A stretch of 39,256 nt of DNA from Actinomycetota bacterium (GTDB taxonomy: Bacteria; Actinomycetota; Acidimicrobiia; IMCC26256; VFJJ01), in assembly GCA_009886115.1 (NCBI GenBank), contig VFJJ01000191.1:1-39256 (forward strand), written 5' to 3'. The notes below the pieces were generated by a model. The model made no database searches. It saw only the letters and a program-made list of their open reading frames with translations, and had not been told where the DNA came from. The first letter of the stretch is position 1. Each line of letters starts with the position of its first letter. Made by a program: the position numbers and the translations under genes. Positions 10,094 through 39,138 of the stretch are shown here, piece by piece.

Positions 10094-11344
10094 ATGACCG
10101 CCCAAGTCTGTCCGGTCGAGCACCGCGTGCCGTGGCTGGAGCCTGAGTTCCTGCTCGAACCCTTTCCCACCTTGGCCGAGATCCGGGCTGAGACCCCGCT
10201 CTTCTTCGACCCCGACCTGGGCCACATCGTCGTCACCCGCTACGCCGACATCGAGAGGATCCTCCTCGACCGGACGACGTTCGCCGCGGCGAACGCGTCG
10301 TCGCCCATCTGGCCCCCGTGCGAGGCGGCGCAGCAGGTGTTGGCGCTCGAGGGCTACAAGCGGGTGCCCACGCTGAACAACGCCGATCCGCCCCGGCACG
10401 GCCCCATGCGCAAGGCGGTCTTCACGTGCATGAGCCCTCGGCGTCTGCGCCAACTCGAGCCTGAGCTGCGCGACCACACCCGCCATCTCGTCGAGCACCT
10501 GGTGACCCTGCCCCGGTGCGACCTGGTGGCCGAGCTCACGTACCCCCTCCCAGCGCACGCCGGCCTGGGGCTGCTCGGAATCCCCGAGGCCGATCACGAG
10601 CAGATCAAGCGCTGGGGCGCCAAGCGGGTGCTGCTCACCTACGGGCATCTCGCCGAGGACGAGCAGGTGGAGGTGGCCCACAACGTCACCGCGTTCTGGC
10701 GCTACGTCGAGCAGTTCGTGGCCGCCAAGAACGCCGATCGCGGCGACGACTTCACCAGCGATCTGCTGCGCCGCCACGACACCCTGCCCGACGAGGTCAC
10801 CATCGACGACATCGTGAACATCACGTATGCCATGGCGCTGGCGGGCCACGATTCCACGACCAACGCCCTCTCGTCGGGCCTGCGGCGCCTGCTCGGTCGC
10901 CGCGATCAGTGGGACGCCATCTGTGCCGATCCGGCGCTCATCCCCAAAGCCGTCGAGGAGTGCCTGCGCTTCGACCCGCCCGTCATGGGCCACCGACGCA
11001 TCACCACGACCGACACCGAGATCGCCGGCATCCACGTCGCCGCCGGCACCAAGCTCGTGATGCTGTTCGGTTCGGCGCATCGCGACGCCGAGCACTTCCC
11101 CGATGCCGACCGGTTCGACGTGCGCCGAGAGAACGCCGACGAGCACCTCACGTTCGGCAAGGGAGTGCACTTCTGCCTCGGGGCGCCCTTGGCCCGCTTG
11201 GAGTTCGAGCTCGTGCTCGAGCTGCTCACCGAGCTTGCGCCGGGGATGCGCCTCGTCGATCCCCAGCCCTTCCCGTACCAGGCCAACGTGATGTGGCGCT
11301 CGCTCGAGCAGCTGCTCGTCGAGCCCGGAGTCGTCGCTCCATGA
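10094..11344 (+). CDS. Cytochrome P450
   Basis: A 416-residue soluble bacterial P450. The I-helix motif AGHDST is at 250-255 (Thr255 for oxygen activation), the ExxR motif is in VEECLRF, and the heme loop FGKGVHFCLGAPLAR places the axial ligand at Cys361. There is no membrane anchor, so it needs a separate ferredoxin and reductase, neither of which is encoded nearby. It would hydroxylate a hydrophobic substrate. GAGG lies ahead of the ATG. Its stop overlaps the ATG of the next gene (ATGA at 11341-11344), so it is the first gene of a coupled P450/monooxygenase/kinase operon. The subfamily and substrate cannot be told from sequence reading alone. Confidence 0.95.
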   Translation: MTAQVCPVEHRVPWLEPEFLLEPFPTLAEIRAETPLFFDPDLGHIVVTRYADIERILLDRTTFAAANASSPIWPPCEAAQQVLALEGYKRVPTLNNADPPRHGPMRKAVFTCMSPRRLRQLEPELRDHTRHLVEHLVTLPRCDLVAELTYPLPAHAGLGLLGIPEADHEQIKRWGAKRVLLTYGHLAEDEQVEVAHNVTAFWRYVEQFVAAKNADRGDDFTSDLLRRHDTLPDEVTIDDIVNITYAMALAGHDSTTNALSSGLRRLLGRRDQWDAICADPALIPKAVEECLRFDPPVMGHRRITTTDTEIAGIHVAAGTKLVMLFGSAHRDAEHFPDADRFDVRRENADEHLTFGKGVHFCLGAPLARLEFELVLELLTELAPGMRLVDPQPFPYQANVMWRSLEQLLVEPGVVAP

Positions 11345-12450
11345 CCGACGGTCCCCCGGGGCCCGGTTGCGGTGGTGCCGGCCTCCCGAGCCCTCCCGGG
11401 CCCGGGCGCGGTGCCGAGTGCCTCGGGGCCTACGTGCTGCCGGGCGGGGTCACCGACCCCACGGCGGTGGTCGGGCAGGCCCATGCGGCAGAGGCTCTCG
11501 GGCTGGGAACGGTCTGGATCGGCGAGCGCTACGACACGAAGGACCTCCCGTCGCTCGCCGGCGCGCTCACCCAGGTCACCACGAGGGTGCGCATCGGGGC
11601 CGGGATCACCCATACGGGGCTTCGTCATCCGATGGTGCTGGCCTCGATGGGCCAGACGCTGCAGGCGCTCTCGGGCGGACGGTTCGCGCTCGGGCTGGGC
11701 CGGTCGGCCTCGTGGCGCTGGACCAACTACGGCGCGCCCGAGCCCACCCTGGCGATCATGGGCGACACGGCGCTCATCCTGCGGCGACTGTGGGCCGGCG
11801 AGACCGTCGACTACGACGGCCCGGCGGGACGGTTCCCGTCACTGCGACTCGCGCAGCGGGCCGCGGTCCCCCCGCCGCCGGTGCTGCTGGCCGCGATCGG
11901 GCCCCGCACCTTGGCCCTGGCGGGGCAGGCGTTCGACGGTGCGATCCTCCATCCCTTTCTCACGCCCGACGGCGTCGCTCGCTCGGTCGCCCTCGTTCGC
12001 GATGCGGCCATCGCACACGGGCGCGATCCCGATGCGATCCGTTGTTACGCGACGGTCGTCGTGGCCCCCGACCGGACCCCGGGCGACGAGGATCTGGCCG
12101 TGGGCGCCCGGGCGGCCGGTTATCTCCAGCTCCCGGGGCTGGGCGACGCCCTCGCCGCCGCCAATCGTTGGCCGGCTGACGATCTGGCCCGCTACCGCAG
12201 CCATCCCACGCTGGTGGCCCTCGGCGGACGCTCGGCCGACAAGGCCCTCCCTCGTTCCGAGCTCATCGAGCTCTCACGCACGCTGCCCAGGCACTGGCTG
12301 CCGTCGTCGTCGGCTGTGGGATCGGCTGCTACGTGCGCGTCGCGGCTGCACGAGTACCTCGACGCGGGTGCCGACGAGCTGGTGTTGCACGGCAGCACCG
12401 CCGAGCACCTCGCCGGTCTCGTCGAGGCGTTCACCGGGAGCAGGTCGTGA
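11341..12450 (+). CDS. LLM-class (luciferase-like, probably F420-dependent) oxidoreductase
   Basis: A 369-residue luciferase-like TIM barrel. After a Pro/Gly-rich N terminus the barrel begins ECLGAYVLPGGVTDP, with GLGTVWIGERYDTKD, VRIGAGITHTGLRHPMVLAS, SGGRFALGLGRS and VLLAAIGPRTLALAGQAFDG in order. This pattern is typical of actinobacterial F420-dependent members, but FMN cannot be excluded. The start at 11341 overlaps the P450 stop, and its own stop overlaps the GTG of the kinase gene (GTGA at 12447-12450). It presumably oxidises or reduces the same compound that the P450 handles. A much longer upstream reading of this frame lies inside the P450 gene and is rejected. Confidence 0.88.
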   Translation: MTDGPPGPGCGGAGLPSPPGPGRGAECLGAYVLPGGVTDPTAVVGQAHAAEALGLGTVWIGERYDTKDLPSLAGALTQVTTRVRIGAGITHTGLRHPMVLASMGQTLQALSGGRFALGLGRSASWRWTNYGAPEPTLAIMGDTALILRRLWAGETVDYDGPAGRFPSLRLAQRAAVPPPPVLLAAIGPRTLALAGQAFDGAILHPFLTPDGVARSVALVRDAAIAHGRDPDAIRCYATVVVAPDRTPGDEDLAVGARAAGYLQLPGLGDALAAANRWPADDLARYRSHPTLVALGGRSADKALPRSELIELSRTLPRHWLPSSSAVGSAATCASRLHEYLDAGADELVLHGSTAEHLAGLVEAFTGSRS

Positions 12451-13661
12451 GTGTCGGCGCCGGCGTCGATGCAGGCGGCGGATCGTCCGAGTGCCGGCGT
12501 GCCGCTCTCGAACGCTGGGTCGCGGCCCGGCTCGAGCCCGTCGCTCTCGGCGGGGTCCGCGATCTCACGGTGTCGTTCGTCGACGAGCGGATCGGCGGCC
12601 AGTCGAACGAGACGGTCCTGTTCGGCGTCCGGTGGAGCGACGCCGAGGGCCAGCGTGACGCCAGGCTGGTGCTGCGCCTGCAACCGTCGGCGCGGACCCA
12701 GATCTTCGAGCATCCCGATGCGGTACGCGAGTCGAGGGTGCTCGATGCACTCGCTCGCCAGTCGACCGTCCCCGTGCCTCGGGTGTGGTGGGCCGAGGCC
12801 GACCCGAGCATCCTGGGCGTGCCGTTCTTCGTGATGAGTGAGGTCGTCGGCCGGGTGCCGCTGGCCAAGCCGTCGGTCCACACCAACGGCTGGCTGCCGA
12901 CGCTCACGCCTTTGCAGCGACGCCGTGTGAGCGACACGGGTATCGAGGCGCTCGCTGCCATCCACCGCGTCGACTGGCGGTCGCCGCTGGCGTTCCTCGT
13001 CGACCCGCTGGGCGCTCCGCCGGGGGTTGCCGGCGAGCTCGAACGGCTCACGCGCTACTACCGGTGGGTCGTCGACGGCCGGCCGTACCCGGTGACCGAC
13101 GCCGCGTTGGCCTGGCTGGCCGAGCGGGCGCCAGCCGTGGCCGAGCGGGCCGGCGATCCGGTTCTGGTGTGGGGCGATGCTCGGATCGGCAACGTGATCT
13201 ACGACGGGCCCGGCGATGCCGGCGACGATGTGAGCGTGGCGGCCGTCATCGACTGGGAGCTGGCGACGATCGGTCCCGCGGGCGTCGATCTCGGCCACTG
13301 GTCGTTCATGGACGCCTTCCACGCCGAGGCTGCCGGCATCGAGCGTCTCGACGGGTACCCGAGCGGCGAGGAGGTCGTCGCCCGCTACGAGAGCGCGGTG
13401 GGCCGGAGCCTGCCCGACCTCGACTGGTTCGAGATCCGCTCGGCACTGTTCATGGCCGCGACGATCATCCGTCAGGCCGACCTGCGCATCGCCCGGGGCG
13501 AGCAGCGGGCCGACACCGACATGGGACATGGCAACCTCTGCACCCGCTACATCGCCGAGCGACTCGGCCTCGCCGTCCCCGAGCTCTCGCAGGACTGGAT
13601 CGCCCACCGCCGCGTGCCGGCCCCCTCGTCGCCCACGGCAACCGTCGAGGAACGTCTCTAA
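12447..13661 (+). CDS. APH-fold phosphotransferase family protein, possible hydroxyacyl-CoA kinase
   Basis: A 404-residue protein of the aminoglycoside phosphotransferase/ACAD10-like family. The N lobe has GGQSNETVLFGV and RLQPSARTQIFEH. The catalytic loop VWGDARIGNVIYD carries Asp244, with Trp at the usual His position, and the metal motif VIDWELATIGPAGVDLGHW carries Asp269. In this family LvaA of Pseudomonas putida and mammalian ACAD10/11 phosphorylate 4-hydroxyacyl-CoA before phosphate elimination. That fits the CoA-rich surroundings far better than antibiotic resistance, but the substrate is inferred. It starts at GTG 12447, overlapping the preceding stop (GTGA), with GGAGCAGG as ribosome binding site. 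It is third in the P450 operon. Confidence 0.85.
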   Translation: MSVGAGVDAGGGSSECRRAALERWVAARLEPVALGGVRDLTVSFVDERIGGQSNETVLFGVRWSDAEGQRDARLVLRLQPSARTQIFEHPDAVRESRVLDALARQSTVPVPRVWWAEADPSILGVPFFVMSEVVGRVPLAKPSVHTNGWLPTLTPLQRRRVSDTGIEALAAIHRVDWRSPLAFLVDPLGAPPGVAGELERLTRYYRWVVDGRPYPVTDAALAWLAERAPAVAERAGDPVLVWGDARIGNVIYDGPGDAGDDVSVAAVIDWELATIGPAGVDLGHWSFMDAFHAEAAGIERLDGYPSGEEVVARYESAVGRSLPDLDWFEIRSALFMAATIIRQADLRIARGEQRADTDMGHGNLCTRYIAERLGLAVPELSQDWIAHRRVPAPSSPTATVEERL

Positions 13662-13724: not shown

Positions 13725-14474
13725 ATGAGGCTCGCGGGCAAGGTGGCACTGGTGACCGGCTCGACCCGGGGGATCGGTCGGTCGATCTGCGAGATGTTCG
13801 CTCGGGAGGGCGCCCGGGTCGCCGTCACCGGCCGCACCGTCGAACGGGGCCAGAAGGTCGTGGCCCGCATCCGCGATGCGGGCGGCGACGCCGAGTTCAT
13901 CCGTCTGGATGTGACCGATGAGCAGAGCGTCCACGACTGCGTCGAGGCCACCGTCGCCCGCTTCGGCACGCTCACCACGCTCATCAACAACGCGGCACCC
14001 ACCGACATCGTGAGCACCACCATCAAGCGGCTCGTCGACTACACGACCGACGAGTGGAACTCGATCATCCTCGGGGCCCTCACCGGCAACGTCTTCTGGA
14101 CCACGAAGTACGCCGTTCCGCACCTCGAAGCAGCGGGCGGCGGTTCGATCGTCAACATCTCGTCGGGCCAGTCGATCGTCGGCATCTCGGGCTTCGCTGC
14201 ATACGCTGCGGCCAAGGGCGGCATGAACTCCATCACGCGCAGCATCGCCGTCGAGGAGGCCCCCCGTAACATCCGCTGCAACGCCATCGTTGTCGGACGG
14301 GTCGTAGCCAAGGGCGACACCGGCGCCGGCATCTCACCCGGGCATCTCACCCGCCTCGGCGTGCCCGACGACATCGCCTACACCGCCACCTACCTGGCTG
14401 CCGACGAGTCGGCCTTCGTCACCGGCTCGATCATCACCGCCGACGGCGGCTTCACCATCAACGGCGAGCACTGA
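13725..14474 (+). CDS. SDR family oxidoreductase
   Basis: A 249-residue classical SDR close to FabG-like proteins. It has GKVALVTGSTRGIGR at the N terminus, LDVTDEQSV, LINNAAPTD, NISSGQSIVG with the catalytic Ser, YAAAK as YxxxK, and FVTGSIITADGGF at the C terminus. The segment between the active site and the C terminus (VVAKGDTGAGISPGHLTR) is shorter than usual, so the substrate lid is small. It follows the kinase gene by 63 bases on the same strand and may be the fourth operon gene, oxidising or reducing a hydroxy/keto-acyl intermediate. The ribosome binding site ahead of the ATG is weak (ACGAGATCACG). Confidence 0.87.
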   Translation: MRLAGKVALVTGSTRGIGRSICEMFAREGARVAVTGRTVERGQKVVARIRDAGGDAEFIRLDVTDEQSVHDCVEATVARFGTLTTLINNAAPTDIVSTTIKRLVDYTTDEWNSIILGALTGNVFWTTKYAVPHLEAAGGGSIVNISSGQSIVGISGFAAYAAAKGGMNSITRSIAVEEAPRNIRCNAIVVGRVVAKGDTGAGISPGHLTRLGVPDDIAYTATYLAADESAFVTGSIITADGGFTINGEH

Positions 14475-14599: not shown

Positions 14600-14607
14600 T
14601 AACATTG

Positions 14608-15843
14608 ATGAACACGACGGTATTTGATGGGTGTGAGGTTGATGACCTGGCCGAGGCAATCGGTCAGCTCCGGGCGCTCATGACGGTGATTCATGCCCAG
14701 TTGATCGACGTGGTAGGCGTGTTCCAAGAACGTGAAGGCCACACGATCGATGCCATGCCGGACGCCGCCACCTGGCTCGCCGCCCGATCCAACCTCGCTC
14801 TGCCTACCGCCCGCCGCGAAGCCGACATCGCCACCCGAGCCCCAGCCATCCCTGCGCTGATGCACGCGTGGCGCAGCGGACGGATCTCCTGGGACCAACT
14901 CCTCGTCCTGGCCCCCGTCGCCACACCTGAGACCGATACCGAGCTCGCCGAGCAGGCACCCGGCTGGACCTATCACTCCACGGTCGTCAACGCCCGCGCC
15001 CTCAAACCTGTCAGTGCCGAAGAAGCACTCGAACAACACCGTGAACGGTTCGTGCAACTCGTCCGCCGACACGACTCGACACTCCGAATCCGGGGACTCC
15101 TCTCAGGCGACCAAGGCGCGATCGTCGAAGCCGCACTCAACCGTCTCGCCGACAGCCTCCCCGAAGAAGGCCGCCTCGAAGGTGGCGAGCCTGCCCGTCG
15201 TGGAGCCCGCATGGCCGACGCGCTCGTCGCCATGTGCGAAGCCCATCCCGAGGTCCTCGCCCAGAACCCCGCCCGACCTCTCGTCGTCGTCCACATCGAC
15301 GTCGAACCCTTCACCCACCACGACAACAGCGACTCAGGCGGTCACGGTCACAGGCCCGCGGCGGCCAAGCCCACCACCATCGGGGCTGGTTGGACCATCA
15401 CCAACGACACCGCCCGCCGACTCGCATGCGACTGCCGGTGGCAGATCATCGCCGACGACCCCAACGGCCAGCCCGTCGGGATCAGCCGCGATTCACGCCG
15501 TATCCCACCCTGGCTCGCCCGAGTCGTCGCCCGCCGCGACCAACACCGATGCCGATGGCCCCGCTGCGACCGCACCGCCTGGCTCGAACTCCACCACATC
15601 ATCCACTGGGCCAACGACGGCCTCACCAACGAGAACAACCTCATTACCATGTGCTGGCACCACCACCACATGCTCCACGAAGGCCACTGGACCATGTCGA
15701 TCAATAAGTCGACTCGTGATATCACCATCACCCGACCAGATGGCCGAACCTACACACCACCGACCGAACCCGACCAGCTCTCCGAACACACCCGAACCTG
15801 GCTCACCCAACTCACCGACTCGCCACCCACTGGCGGTGGGTGA
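14608..15843 (+). CDS. DUF222 / HNH endonuclease (13E12-type)
   Basis: A 411-residue protein with an N-terminal helical DUF222 region (about 1-280) and a C-terminal HNH nuclease. The nuclease core reads RDQHRCRWPRCDRTAWLELH then HIIHWANDGLTNENNL and CWHHHHMLHEG; the catalytic HH is His329-His330 and the CxxxC pair is RWPRCD-adjacent. Such genes occur in many copies in actinobacteria (REP13E12 family in mycobacteria) and are thought to be mobile, though the function is unproven. Codon use differs from neighbours: GAA, CAA and CGA are common, while nearby genes prefer GAG, CAG and CGG/CGC. The start is leaderless, 3 bases after an in-frame TTG. No flanking transposase or target duplication was found. 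Confidence 0.92.
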   Translation: MNTTVFDGCEVDDLAEAIGQLRALMTVIHAQLIDVVGVFQEREGHTIDAMPDAATWLAARSNLALPTARREADIATRAPAIPALMHAWRSGRISWDQLLVLAPVATPETDTELAEQAPGWTYHSTVVNARALKPVSAEEALEQHRERFVQLVRRHDSTLRIRGLLSGDQGAIVEAALNRLADSLPEEGRLEGGEPARRGARMADALVAMCEAHPEVLAQNPARPLVVVHIDVEPFTHHDNSDSGGHGHRPAAAKPTTIGAGWTITNDTARRLACDCRWQIIADDPNGQPVGISRDSRRIPPWLARVVARRDQHRCRWPRCDRTAWLELHHIIHWANDGLTNENNLITMCWHHHHMLHEGHWTMSINKSTRDITITRPDGRTYTPPTEPDQLSEHTRTWLTQLTDSPPTGGG

Positions 15844-18124: not shown

Positions 18125-20482
18125 ATGAGCCAGGACCCCCCCGCAGGCCCCGCAGGCCCCGAAGGCGCCGCCGTGTCGAGCGGGCCCCCCGTCGGGCCGA
18201 ACCTACGCCGGCTCCTCGCGCCCGCCACCCTGGCTGTGGTGGGCGCCAACGAGAAGCTCGGGATGTCGAACAACGCCGTCGTGCCCATGCTCGAGGCCGG
18301 CCTGGCCGTGCACCTCGTGAACCCCAGTCGCGAGACGCTCTACGACCAGCTGGCCCATCGCACCCTGAGTGATGTCGTGGCCGAGCACGGGCCCATCGAT
18401 GCCGTGCTGGCTCTGGTGAACGCCGAGCGTGCTGTGGCGCTCGTCGAGGAGGCCGCGGCGCTGGGCTGCGGGGGAGTTGCCGTCGCCGCGGCCGGCTTCG
18501 GCGAGCTGGGCGACGAGGGTCGCCTGCTGCAGGCCCGACTGGTCGATGCCGCCCGCAGCAACGGCCTGGCCGTCATCGGCCCCAACTGCAGCGGTTTCAA
18601 GAACGTCCCGCTCGGTGTGAACCTGTTCACCGGAGGGCGGCTCTCCCTGAAGCCCGGCGGGGTGTCGGTGGTCTCGCAGAGCGGCTTCCTGGTGCGATCG
18701 GCGCTGGCTGCGGGAGCCCAGCGGGGCCTGGGGATCGGCATCGCGATCTCGTCGGGCAACGAGGCCGTCTGCGATCTCGCGGACCATCTCGAGGCGCTCG
18801 TCGACGACGAGCACACCCGTGTCATCTGCTTGGTGATCGAGACGATCCGTCGTCCGGCGGCCTTCTTCGCGGCCGTGGCCCGCGCTCGCAGAGCCGAGAA
18901 GCCCGTGCTGGCGTTGAAGCTGGGCCGCACCGACCGGTCGCGTCGCATCATGGCCTCGCACACCGGCGCCATCGCAGACGCCAGCTGGGTGTACGAGCTG
19001 GCCTTCCGCGAACATGGTGTGCTCTCGGCGCGCGACATCGACGACCTGCTCGACCAGGCTCAGCTCTTCGCCCAGCTGCCACCCTCGCTCTGGAAGCCGA
19101 TCGAGCGAATCGGCGTCATCACCACCTCGGGAGGGGTGGCGGCGCTGGCCGCCGACATCGCAGAGGACGAGCAGGCGCCCGTTCCCCCGCTCGACGAGCT
19201 CGAAGCCTGGGTGCGAGAGCGCGTTCCCGGCGACACCGTGAACCCCCTCGATCTCACCGGCTTCGTGATGACCCGGCGCGACCTCACCGAGGAGCTGTTC
19301 GATCGCTACGCGGAGGCGGTCGACCTGCTCGTGCTGGCGTGGTGGGCCGCAGAGGGCGACGAAGGTTGGAGCACCACACTGCTGGAGCCGTTCGAGGCAG
19401 TGGCCGCCCGATCGTCGACGCCGTTCCTGGTGACGCCGGTCGAAGCCACGGCGGTGGGGGAGTGGACGGGCGCCGTGCGCGAACGCTCGGGAGTGGCGTT
19501 CGCCCGCGGTGTGCAGTCGGTCTACCGGGCCGTACGGGCGCTCAACCGCTACGTCGGCGATCCGCTCCGCGAGCCGGTCGGTGAGCCGGTCCTTGAACCC
19601 ACGACCCCGGCCGCCGGGCCGCTTGGGGCTTCGACAACGCCATCGACTGCGACACCGACGACAGTCGCGCCGCAGCTGACCTCAGCGCCGCCGCCGGTGA
19701 GACTCGTCGACAGCGAGGTTGGGCCCATCGTCGGCTTCGCCGACGCCATGGCGCTGCTGGCCGACGTGGGCATCGCGACTGCGCCCCACGTGGTGATCGC
19801 GGCCGACGCCCGTCCCGCCGATCCCCCGCTCGCGGCGGCACTGGGGGCGCTGGCGTCCCTCGGCGGGCGGTTGGTCGTGAAGCTCGCCGACGTGGCGCAC
19901 CGTACCGAGCTGGGTGCGGTCCGCGTCGGCGTCACGCCATCGGAGCTCGCGGCCACGGTCGACGAGCTGCGGAGCATCGCCACCGGTCACGGCGTACCGT
20001 CGACCGTCGTGGTGCAGCAGATGGTGCAGGGCCACGGCGAGGCCTTCGCCGGGCTCCAGGTGCACACCGATCTGGGCTCGGTGGTGCTCCTTGGGCGCGG
20101 CGGCGTGCTCGTGGAGATCGCCGGGCCGGTGGCCGGCCGCCTGTTGCCGCTCACCCGGCTCGACGCCGAGCGGCTCGTCGAGGAGGTTGCCGGCGCCGCG
20201 GTCTTCGCTCGCCTCCGGGGCCAGCGGGCCTGGGCGGCCGAGCCGCTGGTGAATGCCGTGCTCGGCGTGGCCGAGCTGTCGCGGCGCCACGCCGGTTGGC
20301 TGGCCAGCGTCGACCTCAACCCGCTCATCGTCACCGACACCGGCGTCGTGGCCGTCGATGCGCTCATGGTCGGATCGGTCACGAGCGCCACGCGCCCCTG
20401 GTCGCCCACGAGCCCTACGAGTCCCGCGAGCCCGCACGAGATGTCGACGGGGGCACCGCGTGGGCTCGCAGAGCCGGTCTGA
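18125..20482 (+). CDS. ADP-forming acyl-CoA (acetate-CoA ligase type) synthetase, alpha-beta fusion
   Basis: A 785-residue fused NDP-forming acyl-CoA synthetase. The CoA-binding Rossmann domain (LLAPATLAVVGANEKLG) comes first. Succinyl-CoA-synthetase-like domains follow, with GPNCSGFKN, VSVVSQSGF and the phospho-histidine motif SHTGAIAD, whose His279 matches the phosphorylated His of the archaeal alpha subunit. A Pro/Thr-rich linker (about 485-525) leads to an ATP-grasp beta domain (VVKLADVAHRTELGAVRVGV, VVQQMVQGHGE, SVDLNPLIV). It makes acyl-CoA from acid, CoA and ATP, or ATP in reverse. The C-terminal 30 residues hold a 9-bp-unit Ser/Pro/Thr repeat. There is no clear ribosome binding site at the ATG; a later GTG at 18173 (before SSGPPVG) is possible. 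Substrate unknown. Confidence 0.9.
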   Translation: MSQDPPAGPAGPEGAAVSSGPPVGPNLRRLLAPATLAVVGANEKLGMSNNAVVPMLEAGLAVHLVNPSRETLYDQLAHRTLSDVVAEHGPIDAVLALVNAERAVALVEEAAALGCGGVAVAAAGFGELGDEGRLLQARLVDAARSNGLAVIGPNCSGFKNVPLGVNLFTGGRLSLKPGGVSVVSQSGFLVRSALAAGAQRGLGIGIAISSGNEAVCDLADHLEALVDDEHTRVICLVIETIRRPAAFFAAVARARRAEKPVLALKLGRTDRSRRIMASHTGAIADASWVYELAFREHGVLSARDIDDLLDQAQLFAQLPPSLWKPIERIGVITTSGGVAALAADIAEDEQAPVPPLDELEAWVRERVPGDTVNPLDLTGFVMTRRDLTEELFDRYAEAVDLLVLAWWAAEGDEGWSTTLLEPFEAVAARSSTPFLVTPVEATAVGEWTGAVRERSGVAFARGVQSVYRAVRALNRYVGDPLREPVGEPVLEPTTPAAGPLGASTTPSTATPTTVAPQLTSAPPPVRLVDSEVGPIVGFADAMALLADVGIATAPHVVIAADARPADPPLAAALGALASLGGRLVVKLADVAHRTELGAVRVGVTPSELAATVDELRSIATGHGVPSTVVVQQMVQGHGEAFAGLQVHTDLGSVVLLGRGGVLVEIAGPVAGRLLPLTRLDAERLVEEVAGAAVFARLRGQRAWAAEPLVNAVLGVAELSRRHAGWLASVDLNPLIVTDTGVVAVDALMVGSVTSATRPWSPTSPTSPASPHEMSTGAPRGLAEPV

Positions 20483-20525: not shown

Positions 20526-21146
20526 ATGACGACCACCCTGCCGCAGACCGACGCCAGCGACGCGATCCGGCCCGCCGTGCCGGCCGGCCTCAGCCATGTC
20601 GCCTACGTCACCCACGACACCGCGGCGACCGTCGACTTCTACCGGCGGCTGCTGGGCATGGAGCTGGTGAACGCCGTGCTCGACGACAAGATCCCCTCGA
20701 CCGGTGATCCCGTCCCGTACTTCCACAGCTTCTTCCGCATGGCTGACGGGTCGACGATCGCCTTCTTCGAAGCGCCCGACCTGCCGCCGGCCGCTGTCGA
20801 CACGCATCCGGCGTACAACGTGTTCCGCCACATCGCGCTCCAGGCCGACAGCCCGGCGACGGTCGACGCCTGGAAGGTGTGGCTCGAGAGCAACGGCGTC
20901 GACGTCCTCGGGCCGGTCGACCACAAGATCATCTACAGCGTCTACTTCCACGATCCCAACGGGATCAGGCTCGAGATCACCACGCCGCTGAGCCCGGCCT
21001 GGAACGACTCGGCGGCATCGGCCCAGGCTGCGTTCGACGACTGGCAGGCCATCAAGCGCACGGCCGTCGAGACCGGGGCCGACATGGTCACGGCACTCGC
21101 CGAGCACACCCGACGTCAGAGCCACCAGAGGACCGAGCCGTCGTAG
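20526..21146 (+). CDS. VOC family protein (glyoxalase/extradiol dioxygenase superfamily)
   Basis: A 206-residue vicinal-oxygen-chelate protein with one visible pair of beta-alpha-beta modules. Probable metal ligands are His24 (GLSHVAYVTHD), His102 (FRHIALQAD) and Glu150 (IRLEITTP). DFYRRLLGMELVN and YFHDPNGIRLEI are signature segments. Members are glyoxalases, ring-cleaving dioxygenases or epimerases. The helical C-terminal tail (AFDDWQAIKRTAVETGADMV) is an extension over the minimal fold. AGGAG lies just ahead of the ATG. It is followed on the same strand by the amidohydrolase, with which it probably shares a pathway; ring cleavage plus hydrolysis or decarboxylation would be consistent. Confidence 0.87.
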   Translation: MTTTLPQTDASDAIRPAVPAGLSHVAYVTHDTAATVDFYRRLLGMELVNAVLDDKIPSTGDPVPYFHSFFRMADGSTIAFFEAPDLPPAAVDTHPAYNVFRHIALQADSPATVDAWKVWLESNGVDVLGPVDHKIIYSVYFHDPNGIRLEITTPLSPAWNDSAASAQAAFDDWQAIKRTAVETGADMVTALAEHTRRQSHQRTEPS

Positions 21147-21170
21147 CTCCGTCGGGCCGTGGCGCGCCGC

Positions 21171-21210
21171 GTCGGAGCGCGTCGGATTGCGTCGGATTGC
21201 GTCGGAACCA
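21171..21210. repeat. 10-bp tandem repeat, four units
   Basis: GTCGGAGCGC, GTCGGATTGC, GTCGGATTGC and GTCGGAACCA follow one another in the gap between the VOC gene and the amidohydrolase, ending 19 bases before the ATG at 21230. The 10-base period is not coding. Confidence 0.8.
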
Positions 21211-21229
21211 TGCGAGCTGGAGGAACGTC

Positions 21230-22426
21230 ATGCCGATCGAGCTCCCCAAGATCATCAGCGTCGACGACCACGTGATCGAGCCGCCCCACGTCTGGCAGAC
21301 CTGGCTCCCGGCCAAGCTCCGTGAGCGGGGCCCCCGGATCATCAGACGGGGCCTGGCCGGTGTCGAATGGCTGGGGCCGGCGGCGTACAAGGAGATCTTC
21401 GACGACGATGCCCCGAACAAGGTCGACGTCTGGCACTACGAAGACCTCACGTACACGAACAAGCGCAACATCGCCGCGGCCGGCTACCCCAAGGAGACCT
21501 GGACGACCGATCCGGTCAACTACGACGACATGCGTCCGGGCTGCTACGACGCCAAGGCCCGCTTGGCCGACATGGACGCCAACTGGGTCGAGCGCTCGAT
21601 GATCTTCCCCACGTTCCCGCGGTTTTGCGGCCAGATGTTCAAGGAGGCCCGGGACAAGGACCTGGCGATGGCCTGTGTCGAGGCCTACAACAACTGGCTC
21701 GTCGAGGAGTGGTGCGGCGACTCGGGCGGACGACTCATCCCCATCTGCCTCATCCCCTTGTGGGACGTGCCCGCGGCGGCTGGCGAGGTGCGCCGCAATG
21801 CCGCCCGGGGCGTGCGCGCCGTGGCGTTCAGCGAGATACCCCACCACCTGGGTCTGCCCAGCATCCACACCGATCACTGGAACCCGTTCTTCGAGGCCTG
21901 CGAAGAGACGGGAACGGTCATCTGCATGCACATCGGCTCGTCGTCGAAGATGCCGGCCACCTCGCCCGATGCGCCCATCAGTGTGTCGGCATCGCTGGCG
22001 TTCGGGAACTCCATGGCGTCCATGGTCGATTTCCTGTACTCCGGCGTGCTCGTGCGCTACCCGCGCCTCACGCTGTCGTACGCCGAGAGCCAGATCGGCT
22101 GGCTGCCGTACGTGTTGGAGCGCATCGACGACGTGTGGGACGACAACCAGGCCTGGGCCCAGACCAAGCACATCCCCGAACCCCCGTCGAGCTACTACTA
22201 CTCCAACATCTACGTGAGCTTCTTCAAGGACGAGTCGGGGATCGAGGCGATCCACCGGACGGGCCGCACCAACATCTGCTTCGAGACCGACTACCCCCAC
22301 GGCGACACGACCTGGCCCACCACCAAGCCCTATGCCGAGAAGCTGTTCGCCGATCTGGGCGAGGACGATCTCTACAACGTCGTCCGGGGCAATGCCTTGC
22401 GGATGCTCGGGATGCGCGACTCCTGA
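21230..22426 (+). CDS. Amidohydrolase family protein (amidohydrolase_2 / ACMSD-like)
   Basis: A 398-residue TIM-barrel metal hydrolase or decarboxylase. It starts IISVDDHVIEPPHVWQTW, the actinobacterial amidohydrolase_2 signature in which the first HxH is replaced by H-x-x-E. The later metal-site segments are VICMHIGSSSK and CFETDYPHGDTTWP, and LYNVVRGNALRMLG closes the barrel. Related enzymes decarboxylate aromatic or muconic acids (ACMSD, gamma-resorcylate decarboxylase) or hydrolyse C-N and C-C bonds. CTGGAGGA precedes the ATG at 21230. It probably shares a transcript with the VOC protein and is convergent with the Liv operon. Confidence 0.9.
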   Translation: MPIELPKIISVDDHVIEPPHVWQTWLPAKLRERGPRIIRRGLAGVEWLGPAAYKEIFDDDAPNKVDVWHYEDLTYTNKRNIAAAGYPKETWTTDPVNYDDMRPGCYDAKARLADMDANWVERSMIFPTFPRFCGQMFKEARDKDLAMACVEAYNNWLVEEWCGDSGGRLIPICLIPLWDVPAAAGEVRRNAARGVRAVAFSEIPHHLGLPSIHTDHWNPFFEACEETGTVICMHIGSSSKMPATSPDAPISVSASLAFGNSMASMVDFLYSGVLVRYPRLTLSYAESQIGWLPYVLERIDDVWDDNQAWAQTKHIPEPPSSYYYSNIYVSFFKDESGIEAIHRTGRTNICFETDYPHGDTTWPTTKPYAEKLFADLGEDDLYNVVRGNALRMLGMRDS

Positions 22427-22447: not shown

Positions 22448-23521
22448 TCATCCCTCGGCGCGGCGCGGGCGCCGGAGGGCTCGGAGTCGCAGCTCCCGTC
22501 CCCCGGTGATGCCGCGGGGACGCACGAGGATCACGATCATCATGACCACGGCGATCGCGATGTTGCTCGAGCTGGCCGGCAGCGTGACGTCGATCCCGAC
22601 GACCGAGAGGCCCTTCTCGCCCTCGAACAACAGGGAGTTCAGGAGGCTCACGAAGAGGCCCCCGACGACCGCTCCCCAGAGGCTGTCGATCCCGCCCACG
22701 ACGAGCATCGCCAGGGTCAAGAACGTGAGCTCCAGGTACACCTGGTCGACGCTCACGCTGCCAAGCAGGTGCACGTAGACCGCACCGGCGAAGCCGGCGA
22801 CGGCGCCGCTCAGGGCGAAGGCGATGAGCCGTTCCTTGTACACGCCGATCCCGCTGCCCCTGGCGGCCGCGGGGTCTTCGCGTGACGCGCGGAGCCGGCG
22901 GCCCCATCGGCTGGCCTGGTACGCGTACGCGACGCCGATGCACACGAGCAGGGCGACGGTGGCCTGCGTCAGCCCGGTGGTCTGAGGGATCGACGGGATG
23001 GCCTTGGCGCCGGGGCCGACGCCGCTCCAGTTGCGCAGCACGTTGCGAGTGATGCCCAGGACGGCGAAGGTGGCGATCCCCGCGCCCAGCCCCGACAAGC
23101 GCACCAGCGCCGTCCCGACGACCAGCGCGAAGATCCCGCCGACCAGCGCGCCGAGAGCGAGCGATGCGACGTTGCCGAGATCGTTGTCGCGAATGAAGCC
23201 GAACAGCTCGGGGAACACCGTGGCCTTCTGTTGCGCGGGCATGCTCATGATCCCGGCGGCGAAGGCGCCCACGCCCACGAAGCTGACGTGCCCGAAGCTC
23301 ACGATGCCCGAGTTCCCGCTGAAGACCGAGAGACCGACGACCATGGCGGTCGTCACCAGCGCGGTGTGGAGTTGGAGCTGCACGCTGTCGCTGAAGGCGG
23401 ACGAGGCGACGCCAACGACGATCGTGAGCGCGACCGGCCCCGCCAGGGGTACGAGGTGCCGTCCGAGCACGAGCCTCGCGGGCCGACGACCGACGAGTGC
23501 GGTCGTCTCGGGCGCGCTCAC
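22448..23521 (-). CDS. livM: Branched-chain amino acid-type ABC transporter permease (LivM)
   Basis: A 357-residue polytopic membrane protein of the LivM group. Many hydrophobic segments are visible, with the family stretches GNSGIVSFGHVSFVGVGAFA, LRASREDPAAARGSGIGVY and LVVGGIDSLWGAVVGG, and the end VILVRPRGITGG. RASREDPAAA corresponds to the cytoplasmic coupling (EAA-like) loop. It is last in a minus-strand operon and starts at 23521, overlapping the livH stop (ATGA). In this transporter class substrates range from branched-chain amino acids to amides, urea and aromatic acids, so the CoA-rich context makes a carboxylate plausible. Confidence 0.92.
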   Translation of the reverse strand: MSAPETTALVGRRPARLVLGRHLVPLAGPVALTIVVGVASSAFSDSVQLQLHTALVTTAMVVGLSVFSGNSGIVSFGHVSFVGVGAFAAGIMSMPAQQKATVFPELFGFIRDNDLGNVASLALGALVGGIFALVVGTALVRLSGLGAGIATFAVLGITRNVLRNWSGVGPGAKAIPSIPQTTGLTQATVALLVCIGVAYAYQASRWGRRLRASREDPAAARGSGIGVYKERLIAFALSGAVAGFAGAVYVHLLGSVSVDQVYLELTFLTLAMLVVGGIDSLWGAVVGGLFVSLLNSLLFEGEKGLSVVGIDVTLPASSSNIAIAVVMMIVILVRPRGITGGRELRLRALRRPRRAEG

Positions 23522-24399
23522 AGCCGCGACGTCACGGTCTCGCGTTGGAACAGCCCACTCGGGCGCACGAGCAGCACGACGATCACGAGCCCGTAGAGCG
23601 CCGAGTCGAGGAAGACCCGCTGCCCCTTGGGTAACAGGCTGAACAGCATCGAGTTGGCGAAGCCGATGAAGAACCCGCCGAGGGTGGCCGAGCTGGGCTT
23701 GTCCATCCCGCCCACCACGACCCCGACGAGAGCGAGGATGGCGATCTGGAGCCCGAAGTCGGGGGTGACGACGGGGCGCTGCGGAGCGAACAACACCAGT
23801 GCGGCCGTGGCGAGCACCCCGGCGATGACGAACGCGCCGACGACGACGTGATTGGCCCGGACCCCCAGCGCCTGGGCGATGCGTTCGTCGCTGGCAGTGG
23901 CGCGCATCTGCAACCCGAGGTCGGTACGGTCGAGGAACAGCGTGACGGCGCCGAGCAGCACCCCACCCACGACGACCGCGGCGATCGTGAGGTACTTGAT
24001 CCGCAGCTCGCCGATCGTGAAGGCCTGGTTCAAGTCGGTGAACAGGTTCATGGTCTTGCCCTGGGCCGACCAGCGCTTCTGGGCGATGCTGCGGAGGAGG
24101 AAGCTCACCGCGAACGTCATCACCAGGGTCGTGGTGGGCGAGGCCCGTCGCAACGGACGCAAGGCCAGGCGCTCCATCAGCAACGCCACGGCGATCACCA
24201 CGGCCAGGGCCGTGAGCACCCTGAGGACGGCCGGCCAGCCGTTGGTCTCGTAGAGGGTGTACCCGCCGGCCATGAGGAGCTCACCGTGGGCCAGGTTCAC
24301 GATCCGCATCACGCCGAAGACGAGCCCGATGCCCAGGGCCACGAGCGCGTAGAGCGAACCCAGGGCGATGGCGTCGATCAGGTACTGGACGTACTTCAT
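23518..24399 (-). CDS. livH: Branched-chain amino acid-type ABC transporter permease (LivH)
   Basis: A 293-residue permease of the LivH group, with about eight hydrophobic segments. Typical stretches are YLIDAIALGSLYALVALGIG, FGVMRIVNLAHGELLMAGGY, LQMRATASDERIAQALG (coupling loop) and LALVGVVVGGMDKPSSATLG, and it ends VLLVRPSGLFQRETV. Its ATG overlaps the livF stop and its stop overlaps the livM ATG, both in ATGA form, so expression of the transporter subunits is tightly coupled. Together with LivM it forms the membrane channel. Confidence 0.93.
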   Translation of the reverse strand: MKYVQYLIDAIALGSLYALVALGIGLVFGVMRIVNLAHGELLMAGGYTLYETNGWPAVLRVLTALAVVIAVALLMERLALRPLRRASPTTTLVMTFAVSFLLRSIAQKRWSAQGKTMNLFTDLNQAFTIGELRIKYLTIAAVVVGGVLLGAVTLFLDRTDLGLQMRATASDERIAQALGVRANHVVVGAFVIAGVLATAALVLFAPQRPVVTPDFGLQIAILALVGVVVGGMDKPSSATLGGFFIGFANSMLFSLLPKGQRVFLDSALYGLVIVVLLVRPSGLFQRETVTSRL

Positions 24400-25214: not shown

Positions 25215-25218
25215 CCGC

Positions 25219-25971: not shown

Positions 25972-26035
25972 GATCGGCCGGAGTCCCGGGATTCGAGGGC
26001 CGTCACCACGCGTCCTGTCACCCGCCGGGATCCGG

Positions 26036-29839: not shown

Positions 29840-29872
29840 GCACGAGACTCACGCAACGAACAAGGAGACGTG

Positions 29873-31405
29873 ATGCAGCCTGGTGACTTCGTCGAGCTCA
29901 GGGGTCATGTGCCCGCGGTGATCATGGCCGAGAGCGGCGCGGTGGTGACCTACGCCGAGCTCGACGAGCGGTCGATGCGCTTGGCGCAGCTGTTGTACCA
30001 GCGCGGGCTGCGGCCGGGCGACCATCTGGCGATCCTGCTCGAGAACCATCCCCGGTACTTGGAGGTCTACTGGGCCGCCCAGCGTGCCGGCCTGTACACC
30101 ACGCCGATCAACTGGCACTTGAAGCCCGAGGAGGCGGCATACATCATCGAAGACTGCGGCGCTGCAGCCTTGGTCACGTCCGTCGCCATGGGCCCGGTGG
30201 TGGCCGGCCTCGGAGGTGCGCTCGACGGGGTCTCGATCCGCTTGGTGGTCGACGGCGAGATCGACGGTTTCGAGCGCTACGAGCAGGCCATCGCCGGCCA
30301 CCCGGCGCAGCCCCTCGCCCACGAGGTCGAGGGCAGCTTCATGTTCTATTCGTCGGGAACGACGGGACGGCCCAAGGGAATCAAGCCACCGCGCTCGAGC
30401 GAGCCGTACGGCTCAGGGGGCGGCATGATCATCGCGCTCATCCAGCATCTGTTCGGGTTCAGCTCCGAGACGGTGTATCTGTGCCCCGCCCCGCTCTATC
30501 ACGCAGCACCGCTCGGGTGGAGCACGGCGGCGCAGCGCCTCGGGGGGACGGTCGTGGTGATGGAACGCTTCGACCCCCGCCTGGCCCTCGAGCTCATTGA
30601 ACGCCACCGCGTGACCCACGCTCAGTTCGTGCCCACGCACTTCGTCCGGATGCTCAAGCTCACCGACGAGGAGCGCACGGCGTACGACCTGTCGAGCCTC
30701 GAGATGGCGGTGCACGCGGCCGCGCCGTGCCCCGTGGAGGTGAAGGATCGGATGATCGAGTGGTGGGGGCCGAGGATCCACGAGTACTACGCGGGCAGTG
30801 AGGGCAACGGGTTCTGCTCCATCGGCCCCGAGCAGTGGCTGGCCCACCGGGGTTCGGTCGGCCCGCCGATGATGGGCGCGCTCCACATCCTCGACGACGA
30901 CGGCCACGAGCTCCCGACGGGGGAGGCCGGACAGATCTGGTTCGAGAGCCCGACGGTGTTCGAGTACCACAACGACCCCGTCAAGACCGCCAAGGCCTTC
31001 AACGAGCACGGCTGGAGCTCGCTCGGCGATATCGGGTACCTCGACGGCGACGGGTATCTGTATCTCACCGACCGGGTGTCGCACATGATCATCTCGGGCG
31101 GGGTGAACATCTACCCGCAGGAGGTCGAGAACCTCCTGACCATGCACCCGGCCGTGGCCGACGTGGCCGTGATCGGGGTTCCCAACGCCGACATGGGCGA
31201 GGAGGTGAAGGCCGTCGTCATCCCGGTCGATCAGGAGCGAGCCGGTGACGAGCTCGCCGCCGAGCTCATCGCCTACTGCCGTGAGCGCATGGCCACCTAC
31301 AAGTGCCCGGCGACCGTCGATTTCGTCGCCGAGCTCCCACGACTGCCGACCGGAAAGCTCCTCAAGCGCGAACTCCGGAGCCGCTACTGGACCGGCCAGA
31401 CCTGA
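29873..31405 (+). CDS. AMP-forming acyl-CoA synthetase (fatty-acid/aryl-CoA ligase type)
   Basis: A 510-residue ANL-superfamily ligase that activates a carboxylic acid through an acyl-adenylate. The P-loop is YSSGTTGRPKG at 159-169; YYAGSEGNGF, YLTDRVSHMIISGGVNIYPQ and the C-terminal catalytic Lys495 in PTGKLLKREL follow. It resembles FadD-type acyl-CoA synthetases of actinobacteria that carry long or aromatic acids. AAGGAG lies 5 bases ahead of the ATG at 29873; the GTG directly upstream is too close to it. It probably shares a transcript with the WS/DGAT gene. The stop codon lies within the 10-bp tandem repeat. Confidence 0.92.
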   Translation: MQPGDFVELRGHVPAVIMAESGAVVTYAELDERSMRLAQLLYQRGLRPGDHLAILLENHPRYLEVYWAAQRAGLYTTPINWHLKPEEAAYIIEDCGAAALVTSVAMGPVVAGLGGALDGVSIRLVVDGEIDGFERYEQAIAGHPAQPLAHEVEGSFMFYSSGTTGRPKGIKPPRSSEPYGSGGGMIIALIQHLFGFSSETVYLCPAPLYHAAPLGWSTAAQRLGGTVVVMERFDPRLALELIERHRVTHAQFVPTHFVRMLKLTDEERTAYDLSSLEMAVHAAAPCPVEVKDRMIEWWGPRIHEYYAGSEGNGFCSIGPEQWLAHRGSVGPPMMGALHILDDDGHELPTGEAGQIWFESPTVFEYHNDPVKTAKAFNEHGWSSLGDIGYLDGDGYLYLTDRVSHMIISGGVNIYPQEVENLLTMHPAVADVAVIGVPNADMGEEVKAVVIPVDQERAGDELAAELIAYCRERMATYKCPATVDFVAELPRLPTGKLLKRELRSRYWTGQT

Positions 31406-36821: not shown

Positions 36822-37991
36822 GTGGAGCTGCAGTTCACCAAGGCGGAGCAGGAGTTCCGCGACGAAGTGCGCACCTGGCTCTCGGAGCACGTCCCCCGAG
36901 AACGCCGCCCCCGAGACCTTCGGGCGGCCCGCGACTTCGACCTGGCCTGGCAGCGCACGCAATACGACGCCGGCTGGGCCGGGATCGCCTGGCCCGTCGA
37001 GTACGGCGGCCGGGGCCTGTCGCTCACCCAGCAGCTCATCTGGTTCGAGGAGTACGCCCGGACGGGCCTCGTCTCGATCGACTCGCGGTTTGTGGGTCTG
37101 GCCCACGCCGGGCCCACGCTCATCGCCAGGGCCACCCCCGAGCAGCAGGCGCAGCATCTGCCGCCGATCCTGCGCGGCGACGTCGTGTGGTGCCAGGGGT
37201 TCTCCGAGCCGGAGGCGGGGTCCGACCTGGCCTCGCTGCGCACCCGGGCGATCGTCGACGGCGACGACCTCGTCGTCACCGGCCAGAAGGTGTGGACGAG
37301 CTTCGCGCCCATCGCCGACTGGCAGGAGCTGCTCGTGCGCACCGACCCCGACGCCCCGAAGCACAAGGGGATCACCTGGGTCATCTGCGACATGCGTTCG
37401 CCGGGGATCGAGGTGCGGCCGTTGCGCACCATCCCGGGATCGGCCGAGTTCGCCGAGGTGTTCTACGACGAGGTTCGCATCCCGACGGCCAACGTCGTGG
37501 GGGCGGTCAACGACGGCTGGCGCGTCGCCATGTCGACCCTGTCGTTCGAGCGGGGGACGGCGTTCACGATCGACCAGGTGCAGCTGGCGATGACGGTCGA
37601 CCGGCTGATCGAGCTGGCCCGGCAGCGCAAGGGCTTCGACGGCAGGCCGCTGATCGCCGACGAGGCGATCGCCGGCGAGCTGGCCTTGGCCCGGGCCGAG
37701 GTGTCGGCGCTCCGGGCGATGACCTACGCCGGGGTCTCGCGCAACCTCACCAGCGCCGAGCCCGGCCCCGAGGGATCGATGTTCAAGCTGTTCTGGTCGG
37801 AGTTGGCCCAACGGGTCGACCGGCTGGCCATGGACGTCCTCGGTGCCGGCGGCCTTCGGCGACGTGACGAGTCGCCCGACGCTGAGTGGATCGAGCGCTA
37901 CCTCAGCTCGTACGCGAACTCCATCGGTGGGGGAACCTCGGAGATCCAGCGCAACATCATCGCCGAGCGGGTGCTCGGGCTACCCCGCTGA
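36822..37991 (+). CDS. Acyl-CoA dehydrogenase family protein, full length
   Basis: A 389-residue flavoprotein dehydrogenase starting at GTG 36822 behind GGAGGA. Landmarks are MELQFTKAEQEFRDEVRTWL, WCQGFSEPEAGSDLASLRTR at the flavin pocket, VTGQKVWTSFA, FYDEVRIPTANVVG and SIGGGTSEIQRNIIAERVLG at the C terminus. At the position of Glu376 of medium-chain dehydrogenase the sequence has Gly (GGGTS for YEGTS), so its base is probably elsewhere, as in other FadE groups. It oxidises an acyl-CoA to the 2-enoyl-CoA and passes electrons to ETF. It lies just ahead of a second, shorter dehydrogenase; pairs like this form heteromeric enzymes in steroid side-chain degradation (ChsE types). Confidence 0.92.
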   Translation: MELQFTKAEQEFRDEVRTWLSEHVPRERRPRDLRAARDFDLAWQRTQYDAGWAGIAWPVEYGGRGLSLTQQLIWFEEYARTGLVSIDSRFVGLAHAGPTLIARATPEQQAQHLPPILRGDVVWCQGFSEPEAGSDLASLRTRAIVDGDDLVVTGQKVWTSFAPIADWQELLVRTDPDAPKHKGITWVICDMRSPGIEVRPLRTIPGSAEFAEVFYDEVRIPTANVVGAVNDGWRVAMSTLSFERGTAFTIDQVQLAMTVDRLIELARQRKGFDGRPLIADEAIAGELALARAEVSALRAMTYAGVSRNLTSAEPGPEGSMFKLFWSELAQRVDRLAMDVLGAGGLRRRDESPDAEWIERYLSSYANSIGGGTSEIQRNIIAERVLGLPR

Positions 37992-38041
37992 ACCCCGCTG
38001 GCGCTCCGCCGGCACCCGCCTGCGCCCGCCGGCGCTCCGCC
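37981..38041. repeat. Degenerate 10-bp tandem repeat, about six units
   Basis: TACCCCGCTG, AACCCCGCTG, GCGCTCCGCC, GGCACCCGCC, TGCGCCCGCC and GGCGCTCCGCC form a degenerate 10-base series that begins within the last codons of the first dehydrogenase and fills the gap before the second. The first two and last four units differ, so two arrays may be joined. Confidence 0.6.
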
Positions 38042-38106
38042 TGCACGAGCGCCGCAGCTCCCGGTCGGTCCCCGCCAGCCGATCCGACCCGATCCCCGAG
38101 GACACC

Positions 38107-39138
38107 ATGGATCTGACACCGACCGTCGATCAGGAGGAGATCATCTCCTCGACTCGCGCCTTCCTCGTCGACCGGCTCCCCGTGGCCCGCACCCGCGAGC
38201 TCATCGACGAGCCGTCGAACGTCGATCTCGACGCCTGGCGGGCGAGTGCCGAGCAGGGGTGGTTCGGTCTCGGGCTGGCCGAGGTGCTCGGCGGTGTGGG
38301 GGTCGGTCTGGCCGACGAGGCGCTGCTGTTCAGGGAGATCGGCCGTTCGTTGGCTTCTGGCCCGTTCCTGGCCACCACCTTGGCGGCGCGGGTCGCTGCG
38401 GTCGCCGGGTTCGACGATCTGGCCGCCCGGTTGCTCGAGGGCACGGTGAGGGCTGGGCTGGCTGAACCCCGGTCGCAGCTCGACGCCTTCGGCCCTGGAG
38501 GCGTCGACGGCGACCTCGACCTGTTCGACGCGGTCGACGTGGAGGTGGTCGTCCTGGTCGGTGTCGGCGGTGCGGCGTTGCTCAGCATGTCGGCACTCGC
38601 CGACATCACGCCGGTGGAGTGCATCGACCCCGCCAGCCGCCTGCACGAGGCAACGGCGACGTCGGCCCTGCCCCTCGCGTTCGTCGCTGCGAGCGCCGAC
38701 CCGGTGTTCCTGCGGGGCGTCACCTTGAGCGCAGCCGCGCTGGCGGGCATGGCCGAGGCCCTGCGCGACCTCTCGGCCGAGCACGCACGGACCCGCATCC
38801 AGTTCGGCTCGCCCATCGGCACGAACCAGGCCGTCAAGCATCCCTGTGCCGAGATGCACGTCCGGGCCGAGGCCGCATGGTCGCAGACGGTCTTCGCCGC
38901 ACTGGCCCTCGACGAGGACCGGGCCGATGCCGAGTTCCACGCCTTGGCGGCCAAGGTGGTCGCGTCGCAGGCGGCCCGGCGCAACGCTGCGGCGGCGATC
39001 CAAGTGCTCGGGGGCATGGGCTTCACGTTCGAGCACGACGCCCACCTCTACATGAAGCGCGCCCACGTGCTCGCCCATGTGCTCGGCGATGCCCGCTGGG
39101 CCCAGGCCCGTCTGCTCAACCTCCCCGTCGAGCTGTAG
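38107..39138 (+). CDS. Acyl-CoA dehydrogenase family protein, shorter partner subunit
   Basis: A 343-residue member of the family, shorter than its neighbour. The N-terminal helical domain (TVDQEEIISSTRAFLVDRLP, WFGLGLAEVLGGVGVGLADE) and the C-terminal four-helix part (HARTRIQFGSPIGTNQAVKH, VLGGMGFTFEHDAHLYMKRA) are clear, but the middle beta domain is brief and lacks the WITNG-type flavin segment. It resembles the ChsE-like second subunits that contribute part of a shared active site. It follows the first dehydrogenase by 115 bases on the same strand, with GAGG ahead of the ATG at 38107. Together they probably form one alpha2beta2 enzyme; the substrate is unknown. Confidence 0.88.
   Translation: MDLTPTVDQEEIISSTRAFLVDRLPVARTRELIDEPSNVDLDAWRASAEQGWFGLGLAEVLGGVGVGLADEALLFREIGRSLASGPFLATTLAARVAAVAGFDDLAARLLEGTVRAGLAEPRSQLDAFGPGGVDGDLDLFDAVDVEVVVLVGVGGAALLSMSALADITPVECIDPASRLHEATATSALPLAFVAASADPVFLRGVTLSAAALAGMAEALRDLSAEHARTRIQFGSPIGTNQAVKHPCAEMHVRAEAAWSQTVFAALALDEDRADAEFHALAAKVVASQAARRNAAAAIQVLGGMGFTFEHDAHLYMKRAHVLAHVLGDARWAQARLLNLPVEL

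Follow-up and report, generated by a model that had tools for sequence, protein, structure and literature searches.

A conserved LLM-class oxidoreductase and APH-fold kinase gene pair within a candidate isoprenoid-catabolism island of an Actinomycetota bacterium

Three overlapping genes and their families

We analysed a stretch of 39,256 nucleotides (the window) from contig VFJJ01000191.1 of an Actinomycetota bacterium (assembly GCA_009886115.1), in which three consecutive genes encode a cytochrome P450, a luciferase-like monooxygenase (LLM)-class oxidoreductase and a kinase of the aminoglycoside phosphotransferase (APH) fold (Table 1). An earlier note on this DNA had described these genes as joined by 4-base overlaps, and we found that its coordinates were exact and that the junctions read ATGA (11341) and GTGA (12447). 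The P450 gene runs from an ATG at 10094 to a stop at 11344, the LLM gene begins with ATG at 11341, with no further in-frame ATG, GTG or TTG before the onset of the family model, and the kinase gene runs from a GTG at 12447 to a stop at 13661. All three proteins score above their Pfam cut-offs (Table 1; for the LLM protein, Bac_luciferase PF00296, 160.5 bits). The P450 carries EECLR (ExxR) and FGKGVHFCLG (heme-Cys loop), which we take to be P450 signatures. An Rfam search gave no match.

At least three further same-strand pairs of open reading frames in the window overlap by 4 bases (3441-4247/4244-6196, 22448-23521/23518-24399 and 23518-24399/24396-25214), and the genome holds 30 APH-family matches. 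Thus, the overlap alone proves little; the 4-base overlaps suggest an operon, and no special bond between its genes. The feature that stands above chance is instead the LLM-kinase pair, which is kept in other genomes.

The full-length match of the LLM protein to TIGR03857, named 'LLM class F420-dependent oxidoreductase', lies far above the curated cut-off (Table 1), with the next-best model at 107.8 bits; the glucose-6-phosphate LLM family, TIGR03557, also matches, at 59 bits only. From the family name we infer that the LLM protein uses F420. If so, its redox reaction does not involve oxygen and the P450 is the sole oxygenase of the three, so that the earlier idea of two oxygenase-type enzymes is probably incorrect.

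Conservation of the LLM-kinase pair

We searched for LLM relatives in four overlapping draws of genomes, with the genome of origin included where drawn, and obtained matches in 21 of 100 relatives (at 1e-60), 2 of 296 genomes of the phylum (at 1e-85), 7 of 150 of the family of genome G073 (at 1e-75) and 5 of 395 of the class (at 1e-78). The conservation set comprised the nine other genomes that passed this search in the G073-family and class draws. An orthologous kinase adjoins the LLM ortholog (52-56% identity) in 6/6 of those with an LLM ortholog of at least 52% (G610, G781, G073, G684, G606 and G595). Two more genomes (G445 and G622) have an LLM relative (43-45%) adjoining an APH kinase of another clade, and in G014 the LLM relative (43-45%) has no APH kinase on its 10.2 kb contig. 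Among LLM relatives at 41% identity or less, an APH match was found in 0/18 loci (L034-L051) within the flanks covered, some of which were ended by contig ends. The window LLM resembles the TIGR03857 (MSMEG_2249) oxidoreductases in its match to the family model, but the kinase-linked LLMs make up a single branch in the tree of LLM proteins, and the remoter relatives sampled have no APH gene in the flanks covered.

In G781 and G610 the LLM and kinase genes lie head to tail and overlap by ATGA, whereas they are divergent in the four genomes of group g46 (G073, G684, G606 and G595); thus, the pair either outlasted a rearrangement or was rebuilt through one. The LLM tree (28 rows) has the same branching as the kinase tree, and all seven rows of the relevant clade are kinase-linked (support 98/97). 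Pairwise identities of the LLM and kinase proteins correlate at 0.994 over the seven loci, as co-inheritance predicts, although some correlation is to be expected between any genes that share their genomes. None of the open-access papers found in our literature searches appears, from its title and abstract opening, to describe the pair. The loci L084 (9229-11201) and L085 (6874-8912), in which LLM relatives (43-45%) stand beside an APH kinase of quite a different clade, apparently represent a second LLM-kinase pairing that is independent of the first.

The P450 is less firmly attached. Within the genomes sampled, the exact order P450-LLM-kinase was seen in the window only. The earlier note had named a gene order unique to this genome as a refuting condition; within this sample the three-gene order falls to it, but the LLM-kinase pair withstands it. 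In G610 and G781, the P450 ortholog (53-54%) is some 3 kb distant from the pair and on the opposite strand, with a gene for a flavin reductase and another of TetR type in between, and that of G073 (49%) lies on another contig than the pair. Searches with the P450, own genome included, matched 2 genomes out of 100 (at 1e-85) and 5 out of 296 (at 1e-95). We considered a general P450-kinase linkage and rejected it, since only 2 of 29 loci of kinase relatives (L014 and L028, among L002-L030, with flanks of about 1.5 kb) had a P450 match; a P450 is also next door in L055, whose kinase is identical to that of L014, and in L058, too few for a general link. Likewise, an arrangement in which the G073 P450 (near the end of contig C1) adjoins the pair (at the start of C56) is disfavoured, because the pair of the related genome G684 lies inside a 40.8 kb contig without the P450. 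In G781, an acyl-CoA dehydrogenase (ACADg, FadE26-like) stands in the place of the P450, in the order ACADg-LLM-kinase with both joints ATGA, and in G610 the FadE26-like gene is the next gene to the pair. The ACADg of the window's own genome (73%) is on contig C161.

Relatives of the kinase

The kinase scores as a member of the APH-fold family and has the catalytic Asp, the Asn and the metal-binding Asp, as D244, N249 and D269, which are invariant in 36 aligned sequences. By alignment offset, D244 and N249 correspond to D220 and N225 of ACAD11, described in the available parts of the source as the catalytic Asp and the Asn that supports it (PMC12440821). Compared to proteins of solved structure, the kinase scores highest with 9fsg (131.6 bits) and Rv3168 (3ats, 128.8), followed by 3dxp (75.1), 9o56 (44.6) and ACAD11 (8v3v, 37.8), and its ortholog in G781 ranks these relatives in the same order. 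A fold search with the kinase model (mean pLDDT 89.3) gave 9ft5 as the best match (Z 36.5 over 354 residues, root-mean-square deviation 2.6, 28% identity), then Rv3168 (Z 36.1); 3dxp, of the ACAD11 clade, reached Z 27.1, and aminoglycoside and choline kinases Z of about 20. Both 9fsg and 9ft5 are named in the fold search as 25-hydroxysteroid kinase (25-HSK) with 25-hydroxy- or 25-phospho-cholestadienone. Thus, judged by sequence and predicted fold, the closest characterised relative of the window kinase is 25-HSK of Sterolibacterium denitrificans, which phosphorylates a tertiary alcohol; the two also share the WGDAR loop and a catabolic setting.

In a kinase tree of 55 rows, in which the PDB chains entered as aligned stretches only, the window kinase groups with those of G610 and G781 (100/98) and then with the four g46 kinases of G073, G606, G684 and G595 (95/94). 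ACAD11, 3dxp and 9o56 fall in a separate clade with L062 and L058_4784 (100/96), and 25-HSK groups with Rv3168, L023, L026 and L025 (100/96), the window kinase being in a clade apart. Rv3168, from Mycobacterium tuberculosis, is about as close to the window kinase as 25-HSK, but groups weakly with the latter (86/7), and no function is established for it in the sources compared. By this tree, the window kinase is a relative of 25-HSK rather than a member of its clade, and lies outside the ACAD11 clade. The LvaA/ACAD10 family assignment given earlier does not agree with this placement, nor with the difference in score between 25-HSK and ACAD11.

The surrounding island and the proposed pathway

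We found that many window proteins have matches of at least 45% in the roughly 60 kb surrounding the pair in G610 (10/32) and G781 (12/32), including the P450, the LLM protein, the SDR (short-chain dehydrogenase/reductase) at 13725, the dehydrogenase pair at 36822-39138, the ligase at 18125 and the Amidohydro_2 protein at 20879 (Table 1); the kinase itself is at 41-42%. The genome also encodes a mycofactocin maturase (TIGR03962, 613.5 bits, cut-off 265), and the score of the SDR at 7198 fits mycofactocin coupling.

Table 1. Genes of the three-gene unit and the surrounding island, by position in the window
Feature	Position	Strand	Relatives and scores
Mycofactocin-coupled SDR, TIGR03971	7198..8052	-	343.6 bits, cut-off 300; 53-54% ortholog directly after kinase in four g46 genomes
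Enoyl-CoA hydratase-fold protein, divergent from P450	9176..10006	-	58-59% orthologs in G610 and G781 islands
Cytochrome P450, heme domain only, 416 aa	10094..11344	+	PF00067 87.7 bits; nearest solved structure 6kbh, 276 bits; orthologs 49-54% in G073, G610, G781
LLM-class oxidoreductase, F420 family TIGR03857	11341..12450	+	420.7 bits, cut-off 218.4; ATGA overlap with P450; orthologs 52-56% adjoining kinase ortholog in six genomes
APH-fold kinase, WGDAR type	12447..13661	+	PF01636 90.0 bits; GTGA overlap with LLM; 25-HSK 9fsg E 3.6e-37; Z 36.5 for 9ft5
SDR directly 3' of kinase	13725..14474	+	69% orthologs near pair in G610, G781, G684, G595
ADP-forming acyl-CoA synthetase-like protein	18125..20482	+	58% orthologs in G610 and G781 islands
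Amidohydro_2-fold protein	20879..22426	+	Nearest DitZ (8uyr) 200.4 bits, PtmU3 (6omp) 134.5 bits; orthologs 65% and 57%
Acyl-CoA ligase, FadD4-like	29870..31405	+	72-76% orthologs in G781 (near pair) and G684
Acyl-CoA dehydrogenase	36822..37991	+	Nearest 4x28_A and Tcur3483; 59-67% orthologs in G073, G595, G610, G781
Partner acyl-CoA dehydrogenase-fold protein	37843..39138	+	Tcur3481 and 4x28_D among top solved relatives

The island gene set as a whole suggests that a bulky isoprenoid is broken down, although no single gene proves it. The hint of a polycyclic substrate arises because a DitZ/PtmU3-like protein occurs together with dehydrogenases that resemble 4x28 and Tcur3483/Tcur3481, which are presumably cholesterol side-chain and steroid acyl-CoA dehydrogenases; a comparison of the island's thiolase and searches of the literature gave no further clue to the substrate. 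PtmU3 is reported, in the portion of the source available, to be a monooxygenase of the non-heme diiron type that acts on diterpenoid-CoA intermediates (PMC10127204). The Amidohydro_2 protein, whose nearest solved structures are DitZ and PtmU3, is thus a candidate non-heme diiron oxygenase for diterpenoid acyl-CoAs, but lies outside the three-gene unit.

We tentatively propose, as the account with the best support but with slightly less than an even chance of being right, that the LLM-kinase pair rather than the three-gene operon is the core unit, and that the kinase activates a hindered hydroxyl of a bulky polycyclic isoprenoid in the manner of 25-HSK. The P450 or the island's PtmU3/DitZ-like oxygenase would supply the hydroxyl; the kinase would then move a phosphate from ATP to this hindered, probably tertiary, hydroxyl on a terpenoid- or steroid-like hydrophobic intermediate, so that an obstacle to beta-oxidation becomes a leaving group. 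The F420-type LLM would convert the same intermediate in the step directly preceding or following that of the kinase, for instance by reducing the alkene left by phosphate loss, and the acyl-CoA ligases, dehydrogenases, hydratases and thiolase of the island would complete the breakdown. The conservation of the pair, the residues of the kinase, the family and fold relations and the make-up of the island are observed; the substrate, the phosphorylated position, the order of steps and the role of the LLM are inferred.

Several observations weigh against this proposal. The kinase tree has no clade that unites the window kinase with 25-HSK, and with 28% identity between them the substrate is not transferable by homology. 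The best structural relatives of the P450 are not the CYP125 and CYP142 steroid hydroxylases (the nearest is 6kbh), and the g46 genomes G684 and G595 have no P450 ortholog in the stretches fetched around the pair. The FadE26-like dehydrogenase that adjoins the pair in G781 and G610 means that the kinase substrate could be an acyl-CoA. Finally, all seven LLM-kinase loci come from one class.

In S. denitrificans, the hydroxyl comes from a molybdenum enzyme without oxygen, whereas the island has oxygenases at hand. As reported in the available sections, phosphate is lost after the kinase step in that organism by the action of a lyase, described as unknown in 2021 (PMC8449060), and the 25-phosphosteroid lyase was called putative in 2024, in the portion available (PMC11061730). 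Luciferase-family peptides are reported in the enriched 25-HSK preparation, which may be a coincidence, and sections 4 and 9 of that paper describe no F420 partner of 25-HSK (PMC8449060). Phosphorylation of an unreactive hydroxyl for elimination is known in few places, namely 4-hydroxy acids and anaerobic sterols. If our proposal is true, a kinase that is co-inherited with an F420-type oxidoreductase, among oxygenases and a mycofactocin enzyme, extends this trick to another catabolic setting, and the pair with its island offers a small, concrete gene set in which to seek a phosphate-removing enzyme of the kind that is only putative for 25-phosphosteroids.

We also considered a bolder version, in which kinase and F420 LLM form a two-component, ATP-driven deoxygenation module and the F420H2-dependent LLM itself removes the phosphate, either by elimination and alkene reduction or by direct hydride displacement. 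We regard this as very doubtful; if true, it would be a new route for clearing hydroxyls that block beta-oxidation, and would hint at the enzyme type of the putative 25-phosphosteroid lyase.

The strongest alternative to our 25-HSK-like proposal, which we consider unlikely though deserving of weight, is the route of the earlier note, in which phosphate is added to a (4-)hydroxyacyl-CoA by a kinase of the LvaA/ACAD10 type and then eliminated by an enzyme with the acyl-CoA dehydrogenase fold. The kinase shares its fold and catalytic loop with those enzymes and also has an acyl-CoA setting, with ACADg directly 5' of the pair in G781 (ATGA overlap) and next to it in G610; moreover, the island is rich in acyl-CoA enzymes and its PtmU3-like protein could make hydroxyacyl-CoAs. 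In contrast, the kinase belongs to a different clade from ACAD11, 3dxp and 9o56 and its HGD loop starts with WGDAR. Arg176 of ACAD11, implicated in CoA binding in the available parts of the source (PMC12440821), is replaced, when placed by the D220/N225 offset, by Gly in the window kinase and Ser in two orthologs, in a region where the alignment is loose.

The dehydrogenases themselves also speak against this alternative. Phosphate handling in ACAD10/11 and LvaC is tied, in the parts of the source available, to R626, H634 and R637 (the HCMR motif) and a catalytic Asp (PMC12440821). Neither the window nor the island loci that we searched contain an HCMR motif. In 5/5 ACADg sequences, R626 is replaced by L or V, H634 by E and R637 by T or V, and the dehydrogenase at 36822-37991 has T, A and I at these three positions; the row of its partner at 37843-39138 is not aligned over this stretch. 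Thus, the LvaC-like partner expected earlier is lacking from these loci. An HCMR-type acyl-CoA dehydrogenase does lie between two other APH genes on contig C125 of the same genome (L109, 2758-5881), likely an LvaA/LvaC-like pair, and a second HCMR-type dehydrogenase is on C146, both away from the LLM-kinase pair. A putative LvaC motif, ADGPDEVH, had no match in 105 loci or the window's own genome, which counts for little; the HCMR motif of the ACAD10/11 source served as the test in its place. We further noted HCMR (or HAMR) motifs near other APH relatives from Acrocarpospora, Mesorhizobium and Microthrix (L061 1071, L062 5477, L063 1101 and L058 3395).

Of the earlier sequence of hydroxylation, phosphorylation and elimination, our results support a kinase with its catalytic residues, a conserved acyl-CoA neighbourhood, and its link to a P450 and a dehydrogenase in two other genomes; they do not support the LvaA/ACAD10 family, the oxygenase role of the LLM or the LvaC-like partner.

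A second alternative, which we judge distinctly improbable, is that the kinase serves to trap an alcohol, or to make it recognisable, by phosphorylation without elimination, and that the LLM uses the phosphate as a handle, as in F420-dependent glucose-6-phosphate dehydrogenase. TIGR03557 does match the LLM protein, and kinases of two different clades are paired with this branch of LLMs, in keeping with a need for phosphate that both pairings share, but the TIGR03857 score far exceeds that of TIGR03557, and a catabolic island with several CoA ligases has no obvious need for such a handle. The least probable alternative is that the genes are neighbours without a common pathway step and the kinase is a detoxification (antibiotic-type) enzyme, as its fold similarity to aminoglycoside and choline kinases and the many APH matches in the genome might suggest, since the congruent trees, the conserved overlap and the occurrence of the pair in two orientations argue against it.

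Two other features lie near the genes of the 25-HSK-like proposal. A DUF222/HNH-type protein (14605-15843) separates the kinase operon from the remainder of the island and is a possible mark of a mobile insertion. A branched-chain-amino-acid-type ABC transporter, with two permeases, two ATPases and a binding protein, is encoded inside the island (22448-27466) and perhaps takes up the pathway substrate.

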